DNA from: Clostridia bacterium
GTDB lineage: Bacteria; Bacillota; Clostridia; Christensenellales; Aristaeellaceae
DNA length: 64,000 bases
Reading direction: 5' to 3'
Assembly: GCA_017552615.1 (NCBI GenBank)
Contig: JAFZPI010000022.1
Location: 19,963 to 83,962 of the forward strand
Shown: in pieces, positions 3,404 through 52,532 of the stretch
Position numbering within the stretch: position 1 is the first letter of the stretch
Layout of the letters: each line of letters begins with the position of its first letter
The notes under the pieces: generated by a model
Told to the model about the DNA's origin: nothing
Databases searched by the model: none
What the model saw: only the letters and a program-made list of their open reading frames with translations
Program-made: the position numbers and the translations under genes

Positions 3404-3441
3404 AGGATTCACATCAAAACAGAAAAGAAAGGATGTCGCCC

Positions 3442-4206
3442 ATGAAACGCATTGCCGCCCTGCTCCTGACTCTCTGTCTCCTCCTGACCGCCGCTTCCGC
3501 CCTGGCGGACGTGGACCTCAGCTACCTCGAACAGTACCCCGATATCTTTGATGTCACCCAGGGAGAGGTCCTCACCTTCATTTGCGACAGCATGACCGCG
3601 GAAGACCTGTCCTTCGTCCATGCTCATGAGAGCGACTACCGGTACAGCTACATGTATTTTGAGCTCTGGATCGAGAACGGCTATGACGTGATCTATCCCG
3701 TGCTGAATATCGTCTACAACGCCGATGAACTCCTGAACATCACAGCGGTCAGCTTCGATCTCGAAGGCGTGCGGTACACCTTTTCCGTGGACCTGGACGA
3801 ACCCGACCGGGACGAAAAGGGCATCACGGAAGATCCGCTGATCTTCTTCGGGATTGAGAACGTCGAGTTCCTGTCCGCGCTGGAAGATATCGTAGACGAC
3901 TGCGATACCGCGGAAGAGATGGAAGAATACCGCATCACGGCGATCCTCCACGGTGACGAGGACCTGACGGTGACGCTCAGCGACGCCTTCCTGCTGGACT
4001 TCTATATCGTCATCAAGGATGCCTTCATTGAGCTCGGCGGCCTGGATAACTTCGACCAGATCTACATTGCCACCCCCATGACGATGGAAGCGATCGACAG
4101 CTGGGATGAATGGGAACCTGATGAAGTGGAAGAGGACGAGCCGGACGACGAAACGGCCGGTGGGAAAGATATCACGGATATCCTGCGGGAGATGTTCCAT
4201 AAGTAA
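3442..4206 (+). CDS. Secreted acidic protein, paralogue of 4442
   Basis: The protein has 254 residues and the signal peptide MKRIAALLLTLCLLLTAASA. The start at 3442 is chosen over the ATG at 3433 because AAAGGA sits 8 bases ahead of it but would abut the earlier one. The mature part begins DVDLSYLEQYPDIF and aligns along its length with the product of 4442 (VDITYLEENPDVF), so the two are tandem paralogues. Its C-terminus adds a highly acidic tail (DEWEPDEVEEDEPDDE) that the paralogue lacks. No known domain was recognised. Confidence 0.72.
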   Translation: MKRIAALLLTLCLLLTAASALADVDLSYLEQYPDIFDVTQGEVLTFICDSMTAEDLSFVHAHESDYRYSYMYFELWIENGYDVIYPVLNIVYNADELLNITAVSFDLEGVRYTFSVDLDEPDRDEKGITEDPLIFFGIENVEFLSALEDIVDDCDTAEEMEEYRITAILHGDEDLTVTLSDAFLLDFYIVIKDAFIELGGLDNFDQIYIATPMTMEAIDSWDEWEPDEVEEDEPDDETAGGKDITDILREMFHK

Positions 4207-4269: not shown

Positions 4270-4386
4270 CCTCATCCGCCCTTCGGGCACCTTCCCCTAA
4301 AGGGGAAGGCAAGAGTAGAAAAGTTACCAAAAGCCTTCCTCTTTAGGGGAAGGGGGACCGCCGCGCTTGCGCGGTGGTGGATGAGG
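4270..4386. repeat. Palindromic intergenic repeat, family A copy 1
   Basis: This 117-bp element starts CCTCATCC and ends GGATGAGG. Inside are two arms built on CTTCCCC/GGGGAAGG and GC-rich hairpins (CGCCCTTCGGGC, CCGCGCTTGCGCGG). Copies with the same outer ends and inner arms are at 35618-35769 and 52415-52532. It lies between two paralogous secreted protein genes. Confidence 0.85.
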
Positions 4387-4441
4387 ACTGGCAGAGGTAG
4401 CTGAATAGCAAAAATCCAAAGCATTGAAAGGACCAAAGAAC

Positions 4442-5107
4442 ATGAAACGCATCGCTGCCCTGATCCTGAGTTTGTGCCTGCTGATGACCGCCGCTTCTGC
4501 CCTGGCGGATGTGGATATCACTTACCTGGAAGAAAACCCGGACGTCTTCAGGGTCCAGAAAGGTGATACGCTCACCTATGTCTGCTCCACCCTGTCCGCG
4601 GCAGACCTGGCGTTTGAGCACGCCTATTCGAACGGGAAGCTGTACAGCTTCACCTGCTTCTCGCTCCTGATCCCAAACGGCAGCGATGTGGTGTATCCGG
4701 TGCTTGATGTGATCTACTGCGCCGACGCGCCGCTGAACATCACGACCGTCAGCATCGAGGTGGGGGATGTGCAGTATACCTTCGCCGTGAGCTCAGACGG
4801 ACCGGTACAGAGTGAGAACGGGGTATCCGAAGACTGTATGATCCTCTTCGGAGTCGAGAATTTTGAGTTCCTGGAAGCGCTGTCGAACGAGATGGCAGCC
4901 TGCAAAACGGAAGAAGATCTGCTGACCCACAAGTATAAGGCGACCCTCCGCGGGGATGAGGAAGTGACCACAACCTTCAGCGGGGCATTCCTCCTGGACT
5001 TCTATCTGATTATTGTCGAGGCCTTCACCGAGGTCGGTGGCCTGAGCGGGGTCAGCCAGCTTTCCGGAGCTTCGACGATGATGACGGACAGCATCCCGCA
5101 GGAGTGA
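4442..5107 (+). CDS. Secreted protein, paralogue of 3442
   Basis: A 221-residue protein with signal peptide MKRIAALILSLCLLMTAASA and a mature region aligning with the 3442 product: shared features include V-Y-P-V-L-(N/D)-(I/V)-(V/I)-Y, a VxYTF(S/A)V strand, and DAFLLDFYxII/GAFLLDFYLII near the end. The start at 4442 follows GAAAGGAC by 9 bases; an upstream TTG is less likely. The acidic tail of the paralogue is missing. The duplication is now separated by a family A repeat, which may carry its own transcription stop. Function unknown. Confidence 0.72.
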   Translation: MKRIAALILSLCLLMTAASALADVDITYLEENPDVFRVQKGDTLTYVCSTLSAADLAFEHAYSNGKLYSFTCFSLLIPNGSDVVYPVLDVIYCADAPLNITTVSIEVGDVQYTFAVSSDGPVQSENGVSEDCMILFGVENFEFLEALSNEMAACKTEEDLLTHKYKATLRGDEEVTTTFSGAFLLDFYLIIVEAFTEVGGLSGVSQLSGASTMMTDSIPQE

Positions 5108-9848: not shown

Positions 9849-9960
9849 CCCCTCAGTCACCGCTTCGCGGTGACAGCTCCCCATTGCGATGGGGAGCCTC
9901 AAAATGAAAAACCCCTTGCCTCCCCACCGCAGTGGGGAGGTGGCCCGCAGGCCAGAGGGG
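9849..9960. repeat. Palindromic intergenic repeat, family C
   Basis: The element begins CCCCTCAGTCACCG and ends GGCCAGAGGGG. It contains hairpin arms CACCGCTTCGCGGTG, CTCCCCATTGCGATGGGGAG and CTCCCCACCGCAGTGGGGAG. The layout, with outer inverted ends and GC-rich inner hairpins, matches families A and B though the letters differ. It lies between convergent genes and could also stop transcription (GAGGGGTTCTTTTTG at its right end). Confidence 0.8.
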
Positions 9961-35617: not shown

Positions 35618-35769
35618 CCTCATCCACCACCGCCTTCGGCGGCGGTCCCCCTTCCCCTGAAGGGGAAGGCTTTTGGATACTTTACGACCCGTTTATGCCT
35701 TCCCCGGTGGGGATGTCGACGAAGGAGATCAGAGGAGAGGTCAGCCCGTTCACAGGCTGACGGATGAGG
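35618..35769. repeat. Palindromic intergenic repeat, family A copy 2
   Basis: A 152-bp element from CCTCATCC to GGATGAGG with the family A inner arms (CTTCCCCTGAAGGGGAAG; CACCGCCTTCGGCGGCGGT). The left end abuts the stop codon of the LRR gene. The right end supplies the last codons and stop of the terminase gene. An additional hairpin (GTCAGCC/GGCTGAC) is present near the right end. Confidence 0.85.
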
Positions 35770-41372: not shown

Positions 41373-43452
41373 AGACTGGGAGGATGACTGGGAAGACGAG
41401 GACGCCTGGGACTTGGAAGAATGGCTGGACGAAGCCCCGGGCTTTGACAGCCCTTCCAATGCGACCTGGAAGACGATCGGTGCGAAGAAGGCCGCGAAGC
41501 TGGCGGTTTATTCCGCACCGTTTGATGATGCCTGGCGCGGTGCGAACGGAAAGGCGTCTGTCGTCACCGGTACGGGCTTCCGCCTTCTCGGTGCGGCACA
41601 GGACGGGCGGTGGCTCATGATCGAATACGGCGTGGACAAGAAAGCCCGCCGTGTGGGTTGGATCCGTACCCCGGACGGCACAGACGCCGACGATCTGTTC
41701 GAATATGTCTGGTACTGCCGTCGCCTGCCCTGCAAGGTGACCGAAAGCGTCTCCTTCACGGACGATCCGCGCGGCACCCAGCGCCAGGTGCGAAAGCTTG
41801 CTGCCGGGGAGCAAGTCATCGCCATGCTTTCCCTTGAAAACAAGGGCACCCTTTGGGCATACGTCGAGACCACTGTCGAAGGCAAACCCGCCTGGGGCTT
41901 TGTCCCGCTGGACGCCCTGGAAGCCGTACCGCTGAGCAGGCTTGAGGGAAACCGCATCGTGATCACGGAGGGTGTGACCTGCATCGGAGAAACTGGGGAG
42001 TGGTCCTGGGATCCTGACACGGAAGAAAGCACCTACACGTCGGAACTGATCAATCCCGGGGATGTCTGGAGCCCGGGGATCTTCCTCTGGGACGACTACA
42101 ACCTGCCCTTTGTCGATGAGATCGTCCTGCCGTCCACGCTTCGCACGATCGGCGGCGAGGCCATTGTGGGCGGGCAGATCGGTACCCTGCGGCTTCCCGG
42201 CAGCCTTACCGGAGTCAGTCGTTATGCGACCTACGGAGCCAATATAGACCGGATCGTCATGGCGGCTGACTATACCGGTGATGTGATTGTCGGGGAATAC
42301 ACCGTAATCAACGCCTATGAAGTCGAGCCGGGGAACCCGCGCTACAGCTCTGTGGACGGTGTGCTGTTCAGCGCCGACCGCAAGACCCTGGTCCGCTACC
42401 CCAACGGCAAAACCGAAAGCTACTATAACGTCCCCTCCGGAACGGAAGTCATCGGCGCCTTTGCCTTTACCGACGACGGGGAAGGCCTGCCTCTGACCTC
42501 GATCTCCCTGCCCATCGGCCTGAAGGAGATCGAAACCTGTGCTTTCAGCGGCTGCACGCGCCTGCTGAGCCTGACTGTTCCGCTGACCGTGACAAAGCTG
42601 GACGCCACGGCCTTCGACACCTGCGTCAGCCTGGAGCGGCTGTCCCTGCCTCCCGGACTGAAGGCGGAGTTCAACAGCGACTGGGCGGAACAGGCCGATT
42701 TCACGTATTTCAACGGCGACAACGGCTCCACCGCGGCAAACAAGAGCAAAGCCAAGGCTGGGAATGAATATAACGAATACGATGACTGGGACAGCCATTC
42801 CGTGGCGGTCCGCCTGGCGGCATCGGACGGGGAAAGCCCCGTACCCTGCTACAAAGCCGCGGAAGACACTGTCCCCTTTACAACCCTTTCCACTGGGCAC
42901 TACGGTTCCTTTTCCGAGACGCAGAACGGCCGTGCGCATGTCTATGTCTTTGAGGATGATTTCTCCGACTGCTGGGTGGAATTGTCCATGCTGCAGCCCA
43001 GCGTGATCAATGTGTTCTTTGCTGTGATCGATGCTGTACCAAACGAGGCGGGCCTGGCAGCGGACGTCTGGGAGGGGCATGATCCCCGGGAGGCGACTTT
43101 CTACTACATGAGCGACATTCAGGATGACGATGTGACGTTCTATTTCCCGGACGGCGAAAGCGTAGATGTTCCGGTCAACCTGACAATTCCGTACCGAAAG
43201 GATGACGGTGCCGGCCGCAGGATGGGTGTTCTCTTTGCCGATTCCGACGAAGAGGACTGGGATTACTACGTAACGCAGCCTATCCGCATCCTGGATGCCC
43301 CGGACGGCGAGTATGCCGGTGTTGCTTTCAAAGGCGACCAGGCGCTGATCATTGAGGAGCGGGACGGTTGGTTCCACGTGAAAACACTCCGCGCGGAAGG
43401 CTGGGTTCCGGCGGAGCAGGTGGTGGAAGTGATGGTCAAGGGTCGGGAGTGA
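41308..43452 (+). CDS. Large secreted protein with SH3-like and LRR regions
   Basis: A 714-residue protein with signal peptide MKRLIVLLLCLLFCLPLTAMA, then an acidic, tryptophan-rich stretch (EDWEDDWEDEDAWDLEEW). Residues 55-215 hold two bacterial SH3-like segments (KLAVYSAPFDDAWRGANGKA; GRWLMIEYGVDKKARRVGW). Residues 220-460 hold BspA-type LRRs (VIGAFAFTDDG, TCAFSGCTRLLSLTVP, DTCVSLERLSLPPGL). A final SH3-like unit (YAGVAFKGDQALIIEERDGWFHV) ends the protein. It is probably wall-associated. CGGAGGGA precedes the ATG. Confidence 0.8.
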   Translation: MKRLIVLLLCLLFCLPLTAMAEDWEDDWEDEDAWDLEEWLDEAPGFDSPSNATWKTIGAKKAAKLAVYSAPFDDAWRGANGKASVVTGTGFRLLGAAQDGRWLMIEYGVDKKARRVGWIRTPDGTDADDLFEYVWYCRRLPCKVTESVSFTDDPRGTQRQVRKLAAGEQVIAMLSLENKGTLWAYVETTVEGKPAWGFVPLDALEAVPLSRLEGNRIVITEGVTCIGETGEWSWDPDTEESTYTSELINPGDVWSPGIFLWDDYNLPFVDEIVLPSTLRTIGGEAIVGGQIGTLRLPGSLTGVSRYATYGANIDRIVMAADYTGDVIVGEYTVINAYEVEPGNPRYSSVDGVLFSADRKTLVRYPNGKTESYYNVPSGTEVIGAFAFTDDGEGLPLTSISLPIGLKEIETCAFSGCTRLLSLTVPLTVTKLDATAFDTCVSLERLSLPPGLKAEFNSDWAEQADFTYFNGDNGSTAANKSKAKAGNEYNEYDDWDSHSVAVRLAASDGESPVPCYKAAEDTVPFTTLSTGHYGSFSETQNGRAHVYVFEDDFSDCWVELSMLQPSVINVFFAVIDAVPNEAGLAADVWEGHDPREATFYYMSDIQDDDVTFYFPDGESVDVPVNLTIPYRKDDGAGRRMGVLFADSDEEDWDYYVTQPIRILDAPDGEYAGVAFKGDQALIIEERDGWFHVKTLRAEGWVPAEQVVEVMVKGRE

Positions 43453-43690
43453 GACCCTCTCAGGCGCTTCGCGCCAGCTCCCCCAGAGGGGGAGCCAAGA
43501 GAGGGATCCCGTCATTGTAAATTGAGCCAACTGTTTTCTATATTTGATGTGGAAGGATTGTTGAATCTATAACAGTATACGGGACCAAAATTCAAAGAAG
43601 ATTATATGCAAGCCTTTTCCAGCAGAAACCTGTACAAACCAATTCTTGCCTCTCCCTTTGGGAGAGGTGCCCCGAAGGGGCGGAGAGGGT
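43453..43690. repeat. Palindromic intergenic repeat, family B copy 1
   Basis: The left part is GACCCTCTCAGGC with hairpins GGCGCTTCGCGCC and CTCCCCCAGAGGGGGAG. The right part (43645-43690) has CTCTCCCTTTGGGAGAG and CCCCGAAGGGG, ending CGGAGAGGGT. About 145 bases of unrelated sequence separate the parts. It starts immediately after the stop codon of the SH3/LRR gene. Confidence 0.8.
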
Positions 43691-43752
43691 ATTTACGTGC
43701 CTCAAGAGGCGGAAGGGTTTACACCTTCACCAGAAACGGAGCATTTACTGCC

Positions 43753-44121
43753 ATGCCAATTCCTAAGAATAACAGTTTGCTTCCGCGAGCGCGGGAACTG
43801 CGCAGGGAAATGACACCATACGAGCGGAAGCTCTGGTATCTTTTCCTGCGGAAGTATCCGGTCAAGGTCTATAAACAGCGCATCATTGGCTCGTTTATTG
43901 TTGATTTCTATTGCGCTTCAGCTAAGCTGGTCATTGAACTTGACGGTTCACAGCATTTTTCTGATCAGGGGATTGCATATGACAGTCAAAGGAGCGTTTG
44001 TTTGGAACGTAATGGATTGAAAGTCTTACGTTTTTCGAATCGGGAGATTGACGAAGAGTTTGCTGCGGTTTGCAGAGCCATTGATATGGCGATTCAGGAA
44101 GGGATAAAGGTGGAAAAGTAG
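43753..44121 (+). CDS. DUF559 endonuclease-like protein between two repeats
   Basis: A 122-residue protein with the DUF559 / very-short-patch-repair-like fold: ARELRREMTPYERKLWYLFL, KQRIIGSFIVDFYC, then LVIELDGSQHF (the E-x-D nuclease core), then 'RNGLKVLRFSNREI'. Such proteins are thought to be small nucleases, but activity is rarely shown. The frame extends upstream to 43606 through a repeat arm; the start at 43753 is preferred because it begins at the usual family N-terminus, though its ribosome site is weak. It lies between two family B repeats. Confidence 0.78.
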   Translation: MPIPKNNSLLPRARELRREMTPYERKLWYLFLRKYPVKVYKQRIIGSFIVDFYCASAKLVIELDGSQHFSDQGIAYDSQRSVCLERNGLKVLRFSNREIDEEFAAVCRAIDMAIQEGIKVEK

Positions 44122-44140
44122 AGGGATCCCCTCTCTGGCG

Positions 44141-44404
44141 GACCCTCTCAGGCATACCCTCTCAGGCACTTTGTGCCAGCTCCCCCAGAGGGGGAGCCAA
44201 GAGGAAGAGTCTTTTGTTTTATATGGATCGAAATGAAACACTTTTATGTCTGCATTTCATGACAAGTCAAGCATGAAAGGAATACGTCCTTCTGTATAAG
44301 GAAAACAAGAAAACAAAATTGTTGCCTTTCGTTCAACAAAAGGCAACAAACCGCTATTCTTGCCTCTCCCTCTGGGAGAGGTGCCCCGAAGGGGCGGAGA
44401 GGGT
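44141..44404. repeat. Palindromic intergenic repeat, family B copy 2
   Basis: The same left part as copy 1 (GACCCTCTCAGGC, here with a partial extra CCCTCTCAGGCA unit, then CTCCCCCAGAGGGGGAG) and the same right part (CTCTCCCTCTGGGAGAG, CCCCGAAGGGG, GGAGAGGGT) in the same orientation. The right part encodes the last 14 or so residues of the minus-strand vanZ-like gene. Confidence 0.8.
44303..44349 (-). terminator. Terminator of the flavodiiron-VanZ operon
   Basis: TTGTTGCCTTT and AAAGGCAACAA form a perfect 11-bp stem with a 9-base loop; on the minus strand it is followed by TTTTGTTTTC. It lies 5 bases past the vanZ-like stop codon. Confidence 0.85.
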
Positions 44405-44857
44405 CTTCACCTTTTTCCTGACAATCAACAATACCAAAAACGCAATCATCGTCCCCGTCAGTGCTCCGCATCCGTCCAGCAGGCTGTCTTGCCAGATGGC
44501 GGAGCGGGAGGCGACAAAGCTCTGGTGATACTCGTCCGCGACTGCGCTCAGCAGGGCGACCGGGAAGGCCCAGAACGCTCGGACAGGCTTTTCGGGTACG
44601 GCAAAAGCAAAGCCGAGGGAGAGTCCCAGGAGACAGAACAGGCTGAAATGCGCGGTTTTGCGCACGATATGATCAACCATGTTCAGGTTTTTCGGAGTGT
44701 CTTCAATGCTGAACAGGCGCATGAAAAAGTGCGCGATGCTGTTGCTGAGCCTGCCGGATTCTTCACCGGTCTGCGAGGAAAACAGCCACATGGCGGCGAG
44801 CAGTCCGATGCCCACAATGCCGCAGCAGATGCGGAAAGTTCGATAGCGTTTGCTCAT
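44354..44857 (-). CDS. VanZ-family membrane protein
   Basis: The 167-residue protein has four hydrophobic helices and the VanZ pattern: SSQTGEES after helix 1, IVRKTAHFSLFCLLGL, then DEYHQSFVASRSAIWQDSLLDGCGALTG. VanZ homologues relate to teicoplanin resistance in one case; the general role is unknown. The start lies 9 bases after the flavodiiron stop and lacks a strong site, implying coupling. The C-terminal tail (SAPSGHLSQRERQE) is encoded by a family B repeat and is not part of the usual fold. Confidence 0.82.
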   Translation of the reverse strand: MSKRYRTFRICCGIVGIGLLAAMWLFSSQTGEESGRLSNSIAHFFMRLFSIEDTPKNLNMVDHIVRKTAHFSLFCLLGLSLGFAFAVPEKPVRAFWAFPVALLSAVADEYHQSFVASRSAIWQDSLLDGCGALTGTMIAFLVLLIVRKKVKTLSAPSGHLSQRERQE

Positions 44858-52414: not shown

Positions 52415-52532
52415 CCTCATCCACCACCGCCTTCGGCGGCGGTCCCCCTTCCCCTAGAGGGGAAGGCAAAACGGGTCAAAAGCCGCCAAAAGCCTTCCCC
52501 TTTAGGGGAAGGTGCCCGAAGGGCGGATGAGG
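52415..52532. repeat. Palindromic intergenic repeat, family A copy 3
   Basis: A 118-bp copy, CCTCATCC to GGATGAGG, nearly the mirror of copy 1 (ACCGCCTTCGGCGGCGGT at the left, CGAAGGGCGGATGAGG at the right). It sits in the transcribed leader between the T-box terminator and the metG ribosome site. Confidence 0.85.

Follow-up and report, generated by a model that had tools for sequence, protein, structure and literature searches.

A DUF559 nuclease gene bracketed by purine-tagged palindromic repeats in a Clostridia bacterium: a candidate REP-like repeat system with a different enzyme

The locus described here raises the question of why a small nuclease gene should stand between copies of a palindromic repeat, and whether its product could be what moves them. 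It lies in a 64-kb stretch of DNA (the window, which was analysed over its whole length) from an assembly of 2.03 Mb in 49 contigs that is 73% complete. The initial annotation had described a DUF559 gene bracketed by two same-orientation repeats, and this description holds. The open reading frame at 43606-44121 (+) matches Pfam DUF559 (PF04480) with 98.7 bits (E 2.3e-28; cut-off 20.6 bits), and it is bracketed by two units of the same orientation, each made of two inverted arms of ~45 nt and a spacer. As direct copies, 43454-43533 and 44156-44235 are 78% identical over 80 nt (94% over the 48-nt arm), and 43642-43696 and 44356-44410 are 95% identical. Bit scores in the following list come from an arm model, called R1, whose 58 training arms include 3 from this genome, 2 of those from the window DUF559 locus itself; since R1 has 5 base pairs only, it is mostly a sequence model.

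43753..44121, + strand: DUF559 nuclease gene, 122 aa, identified by its Pfam match, the similarity of relatives and conserved residues
43606..44121, + strand: longer open frame crossing an arm, the extra N-terminus probably untranslated
43456..43497, - strand: arm 1, outer, tag away from the gene (R1 39.3 bits)
43647..43688, + strand: arm 2, tag toward the gene (R1 39.6 bits)
44158..44199, - strand: arm 3, tag toward the gene (R1 39.9 bits)
44361..44402, + strand: arm 4, outer (R1 38.7 bits)
43454..43692, no strand: repeat unit 1, arms 1 and 2, inverted, with a spacer between
44156..44405, no strand: repeat unit 2, arms 3 and 4, inverted, with a spacer absent from other copies
43642..44204, no strand: core arm-gene-arm unit, in the order of compact 453-bp elements elsewhere
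4270..4385, no strand: dispersed arm pair (-)(+), family C type
9849..9960, no strand: dispersed arm pair (-)(+) (R1 32.0 and 19.4 bits)
35619..35670, - strand: dispersed single arm (R1 37.3 bits)
52416..52532, no strand: dispersed arm pair (-)(+), family C type

Over the 64 kb, R1 identifies 11 arms at 19.4-39.9 bits, with the next match at 11.9 bits. These arms form five pairs, all in (-)(+) order with outward tags, and one single arm; the DUF559 gene sits at a (+)(-) junction, so that two tags face it. Elsewhere in the genome, copies retain the arms (identity up to 100%) and differ in their spacers, as in the pair C4:17134-17181 and C4:17190-17239. The frame had also been reported to run upstream through a repeat arm. 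It is indeed open across the arm at 43647-43688, and other DUF559 genes likewise have open frames that extend into arms, but similarity to relatives begins only at about the ATG at 43753 (with a GGAG 11 nt upstream); we therefore regard the read-through as probably incidental, and functional translation through the arm was rejected as an alternative. In the ORF map, the gene stands alone between its repeats, introns being covered by Rfam over 43300-44600 only. Reading the arms as an RNA family was rejected, the best of six Rfam matches over the same interval lying far under the gathering threshold. FprA, a neighbour in the window, was compared in 11 congeners together with ~1.5 kb of surrounding sequence; none of the window's VanZ, DUF559 or LRR genes adjoins it there. 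Elsewhere in the window, three copies (1627-1697, 3439-3509 and 4439-4509) code for a secretion-signal-like start (MKRIAAL...) and probably mark tandem paralogues.

The window protein matches DUF559 and, weakly, REase_MTES_1575, and nothing else; the Pfam model Transposase_17 (IS200/IS605-type tyrosine transposase) has no match in it. All 45 family members compared match DUF559 and 40 of them REase_MTES_1575, and ten residues are invariant (E24, Q42, D51, F52, E62, D64, G65, D77, R80 and R93), with H68 nearly so. A family profile matches PDB 3hrl, an endonuclease-like protein, at E 1.5e-28; the other 18 PDB chains among the matches listed, apart from the one described next, have E values above 0.05. 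That one is 3r3p, a mobile intron protein that we take to be I-Bth0305I, matched at E 1.7e-4 over 91 residues of the chain. The family thus resembles I-Bth0305I and the Vsr-like nucleases in its profile; unlike I-Bth0305I, the DUF559 gene is free-standing between repeats, with no intron or intein as far as seen. Against the NCBIfam vsr model the window protein gave no match, and the best of four proteins reached 25.1 bits versus a cut-off of 97.85. The genes are under purifying selection, with dN/dS values of 0.04-0.16 in nine pairs (dS being saturated in some). A role in defence was considered and dropped, as just one weak DpdF match (22.5 bits) pointed to it.

The association between gene and repeat is well supported beyond this locus. 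Of 561 relatives, the best 80 were taken as loci from named genomes, and 72 of these loci have 600 nt of flank to the left and to the right. A repeat with a copy to each side of the gene is present in 44/72, versus 6/249 windows shifted within the same loci; when one-sided repeats also count, the figures are 55/72 versus 44/249. Of 23 loci drawn from the order, 19 show an arm no more than 300 nt away and 15 are flanked by arms to the left and to the right (18/22 and 14/22 when L180, identical to an R1-training locus, is left out), while loci with a weak or partial DUF559 match only have arms in 0/9 cases. Arm density at the order loci is 53 in 13,663 nt near the gene versus 5 in 49,537 nt farther away, a 38-fold difference. 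At the 15 both-sided loci, the arms are mutually inverted across the gene in 13; as for the nearest tags, 10 loci have them toward the gene, 3 away from it and 2 both in the same direction. The window genome itself has three strong DUF559 genes. Arms bracket two of them, the window gene and L003; the third, L001, has full arms on one flank and, on the other, a short fragment of the same repeat with an inverted CCAACC tract. A 34-nt sequence of tandem CCAACC-like units also occurs beside these loci (L001:1023-1056, 1244-1277 and 1915-1948; L003:1178-1210), and is inverted across the gene in L001.

Some of these loci are compact arm-gene-arm elements of 453-454 bp (L013, L014 and L019, from two taxonomic families), with similar ones at L066, L076, L085, L087, L091, L092 and L099; L099 and L014 are 99% identical over 1.2 kb. 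A common GCGCACTTCTATACACC-like sequence lies immediately outside the left arm in L013, L019, L099, L032 and L033, possibly a second repeat or the end of a longer element. The compact element at L087:4397-4750 is near a tRNA-Gly-like sequence, and its right flank has a similar counterpart in L076, L090, L091 and L092. No clean empty sites were obtained, the intergenic gap in the genus of G024 being too variable for ends or duplications to be read, and no target duplications were seen by eye in flanks that are strongly diverged. In the same genus one element occupies one site common to three species, and may thus be inherited rather than recent. A repeat of ~150 bp (L215:5855-6001) has more than 10 copies in G024, 90-98% identical, and occurs in congeners as well; it seems to be another element inside arm-like sequence.

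Each arm consists of a pyrimidine strand, a loop, a purine strand, a short spacer, usually a second hairpin, and a purine tag. In clostridial arms this tag repeats the purine strand in mirror order, for example GGGAGAGG...GGAGAGGG. Arm 2 of the window shows this at 8/8 positions (purine strand GGGAGAGG, tag GGAGAGGG), arm 4 has the same two sequences, and arm 3 (purine strand GGGGGAGC, tag TGAGAGGG) is an imperfect mirror. For a statistical assessment, arms were chosen without any tag condition, giving 88 non-redundant arms, of which 16 were dropped as wrong-strand reads; with one arm per distinct stem, 30 were scored. Mirror identity was 164/210 positions, versus 134.4 +/- 4.1 when tags were shuffled among arms (0/2000 shuffles reached 164), and direct-repeat identity was 149/210 versus 137.2 +/- 4.0. 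On later loci (14 stems) the mirror gave z 4.2 and the direct repeat z 1.7; the 4 new stems alone gave z 0.8. Where the tag departs from the mirror, it leans to a purine-motif triplex code. Over A there are 38 A, 10 T (6.0 expected) and 3 G (19.3 expected) in the tag, and over C there is a T in 7/12 cases (2.9 expected), T over C-G being tolerated in purine-motif triplexes. As we know of no duplication process that yields mirror copies, a three-strand fold is the natural reading of the tag. The clostridial mirror tag is thus well supported at the level of sequence, and would be the signature of an intrastrand triplex.

Repeats of the intrastrand-triplex kind were already known from bacteria in the 1990s. 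The BoxC/PIT/TM repeats combine a pyrimidine-purine hairpin with a purine third block, pairing as G.G-C, A.A-T and T.A-T triads, and are described in the excerpts available from a 2015 study as widespread, linked to genome instability and present in E. coli K-12 as five pairs in inverted configuration (PMC4666352). The same excerpts state that remnants of a transposase or integrase were never found near the E. coli sites and describe the mechanism as unclear, and the main text has no word beginning with "endonuclease" (PMC4666352). Clostridial arms are like these repeats in having a pyrimidine-purine hairpin and a mirror purine block, and unlike them in a second loop of ~13-35 nt that itself holds a hairpin. 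Loops in the published searches, as the excerpts give them, were of 1-6 nt and 0-10 nt (PMC4666352), and a search limited to 1-6 nt should miss the clostridial arms. Among open-licence papers we found no gene that moves intrastrand-triplex repeats; titles and the starts of abstracts gave no link between DUF559 and repeats, nor did those passages naming DUF559 that were available as extracts.

DUF559 paralogues in one genome mostly have their own repeat family on both sides, a result that is well supported. In eight genomes with at least two DUF559 genes, the two flanks of a single locus have a median similarity score of 84 (n=23), while flanks of different loci in the same genome have a median of 23 (n=52; p 4.8e-6). 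The paralogues in that comparison are 45-63% identical; L001 and L003, which are 92% identical, have one repeat family in common. The own-family effect is absent from five loci, L225, L229, L230, L029 and L011; the first of these matches, with its left flank, the right flank of L223 (score 81). In the window genome, the window gene pairs with family A and the L001 and L003 genes pair with family B; family C was seen beside none of the three, in an assembly that is 73% complete. The suggestion that families A, B and C could all be products of one DUF559 protein is therefore not what we would expect, because paralogues tend to have their own family.

Repeat number had been predicted to follow gene presence, and in large part it does. 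In the genus of G024 (17 genomes), the seven genomes with DUF559 have 14, 8, 58, 6, 8, 79 and 3 arms and the ten without have 0-2 (p 5e-5), which separates 7/7 from 10/10 in counts that include the arms around the gene, G024 having given one arm to R1. The trend is weaker in the window's own genus (12 genomes), where genomes with a strong DUF559 have 64, 16, 8, 10 and 28 arms versus 0, 0, 5, 15, 0, 1 and 70 in those without (p 0.05). In a set of 60 genomes, any arm is found in 14/17 with DUF559 versus 7/43 without, and more than four arms in 8/17 versus 6/43; 9/17 genomes with a strong DUF559 hold just 0-2 arms. Across 297 genomes of the order, for each of which 20 candidates were scored with the arms around the gene included, the figures are 43/55 versus 16/242 for any arm and 27/55 versus 7/242 for at least four arms; at least five of these genomes (G000, G024, G016, G035 and G057) gave arms to R1. 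Counted by hand per genus, they are 31/34 with DUF559 versus 5/83 without. Across the order the association between gene and arms is thus strong, but not absolute. Eleven arm-rich genomes (G011, G018, G007, G020, G021, G120, G143, G315, G218, G209 and G070) go against the prediction: a profile search found no full DUF559 in them and two partial matches only, G011 having 70 arms in a 94% complete assembly and G018 34 arms. The outcome that the initial annotation had named as refuting its idea thus occurs in part. Genus g78, moreover, has 9-17 arms in three sampled genomes that lack the gene, and none in one of the three that have it.

The initial annotation had proposed a system of Clostridia repeats, a scope that proved too narrow, as DUF559-repeat pairs occur in other phyla as well. 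Arm-like sequences are near DUF559 genes of Deinococcus, Azospirillum, Sinorhizobium, Novosphingobium and Shinella, and near those in viral-contig records (34-45% identity). In a mechanical mirror scan, 27/41 distant loci had an arm on one side or both, and 11/41 on both sides, versus 7/138 and 1/138 control windows; direct-repeat scoring of the same loci gave much the same (26/41 versus 6/138 control windows). Mirror tags are visible by eye in several distant loci, with T over A in L118, L198, L201 and L205, and a crude tag test gave z 3.0 for mirror and z 3.7 for direct tags, so that the two are inseparable here. In Deinococcus sp. NW-56, the DUF559 gene is between an oxidoreductase gene and hpaE; in D. 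proteolyticus there is a 4-nt overlap between those two, the DUF559 gene being located between hpaB and the oxidoreductase gene. As the junctions differ while the arms are alike, the two hpa clusters suggest separate insertions of the DUF559 gene. DUF559 genes are also found within a transhydrogenase operon on a Sphingomonas plasmid (L204:1486-1881) and within a phenylacetate operon on a Deinococcus plasmid (L203:1474-1827).

In E. coli, the DUF559 gene ycjD is between sapF and fabI, and a query of ycjD with its downstream repeats is present over at least 80% of its length in 3364/5426 genomes. These repeats appear to be BoxC-like. In strain KE47 the first of them has its tag toward ycjD, while upstream of the gene there is a different palindrome, so that BoxC-like arms are on one side only in the E. 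coli strains examined. The TTA second loop of the downstream repeats fits type A as given in the excerpts of PMC4666352. In an even sample of 60 from 5375 records, matching places number 18 at the median in the 37 with ycjD and 3 in the 23 without; this link is weak, because counts follow a few lineages, and an O157:H7 record without ycjD still has 12 matching places. The sapF-fabI interval is a variable site (L208-L214), holding either ycjD with BoxC-like repeats or an efflux operon, the latter in four E. coli strains without ycjD.

How, then, does this system relate to those already described? In systems of REP elements, REPINs and REP-associated tyrosine transposases (REP/RAYT), as set out in excerpts of PMC2817692, a gene is flanked by two inverted short palindromic repeats, which are also dispersed through the genome, including as inverted doublets with unrelated segments between them. 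The DUF559 gene is likewise flanked by inverted repeats, as at the both-sided order loci, and the same arms are dispersed as inverted doublets with unrelated spacers. The proposal of a REP-like mobilisation system therefore agrees with the data in bracketing, copy number and layout; it parts from REP/RAYT in the nuclease, which is DUF559 rather than an IS200/IS605-type tyrosine transposase, and in the purine tag that follows the hairpins, where RAYT systems have a GT(A/G)G head before the hairpin. Such a head precedes stem 1 in 0/58 arms, and stands at the tag end, on the other strand, in 1/58. Since neither the transposase type nor the head was found, the DUF559 system works like REP/RAYT and is not a member of it. 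The units also resemble MITEs, as short inverted-arm units dispersed through the genome, but differ from them in an interior that varies between copies and in having no known transposase within the unit; in the strongly diverged flanks, no target duplication was seen by eye.

We lean towards the view that this is a REP/RAYT-like repeat system with a different enzyme, in which the DUF559 nuclease spreads the arms. The small protein, of the PD-(D/E)XK type and remote kin of a mobile-intron nuclease, would recognise its own arms when folded, the arm strand forming a purine-motif triple helix through the tag that mirrors the purine strand of the first hairpin. The gene lies between two arms, tags usually toward it, and gene-less pairs are dispersed as inverted doublets. 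On this view the nuclease would cut at folded arms of its own family, probably where DNA is single-stranded at replication forks; the ends would then be copied or rejoined, which would spread the doublets and now and then the gene. More tentatively, and with somewhat less than even confidence, DUF559 proteins may be the missing mobilisers of the BoxC/PIT/TM triplex repeats. They would then make up a second class of REP-type system, evolved independently of the first, whose PD-(D/E)XK nuclease reads a triple-helical arm, with E. coli YcjD and BoxC as a worn-down member.

Three other explanations deserve weighing against this one. DUF559 could be a nuclease that guards or repairs DNA by nicking obstacles formed by triplexes or hairpins and is kept where repeats abound, the repeats spreading by other means. 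Such a role would account for the copy-number association, and VsrA of Caulobacter, which has a DUF559 domain, is a predicted mismatch-repair nuclease according to the part of PMC12907096 available; it leaves unexplained both the presence of one gene's own family on its two sides and the compact arm-gene-arm units, and we consider it unlikely. We think it less likely again that the arms are moved in trans by another transposase (such as a RAYT), with DUF559 as cargo or as a by-stander in repeat-rich gaps: the arm-rich genomes without a full DUF559 speak for this, but neither gene-specific families within one genome nor the 38-fold arm enrichment at the gene would be expected of a by-stander. 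Homing, finally, would have DUF559 cut gene-less doublets, so that recombination between common arms copies the gene in while the doublets spread otherwise. The remote homology to the mobile intron protein 3r3p fits, as do near-identical direct repeats around some genes (in L003, 98.6% over 221 bp); as homing alone does not explain the copy-number link between gene and doublets, we judge it the most doubtful of the three.

The favoured reading, in which the DUF559 nuclease spreads its own arms, points to a possible role for DUF559, a widespread protein whose function is unknown. A specific pairing of nuclease and repeat makes the mobility of triplex repeats testable at the bench, in E. coli K-12 as well as in clostridia. 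If it is true, triple-helical DNA would join the structures that are recognised by the enzymes of mobile elements.
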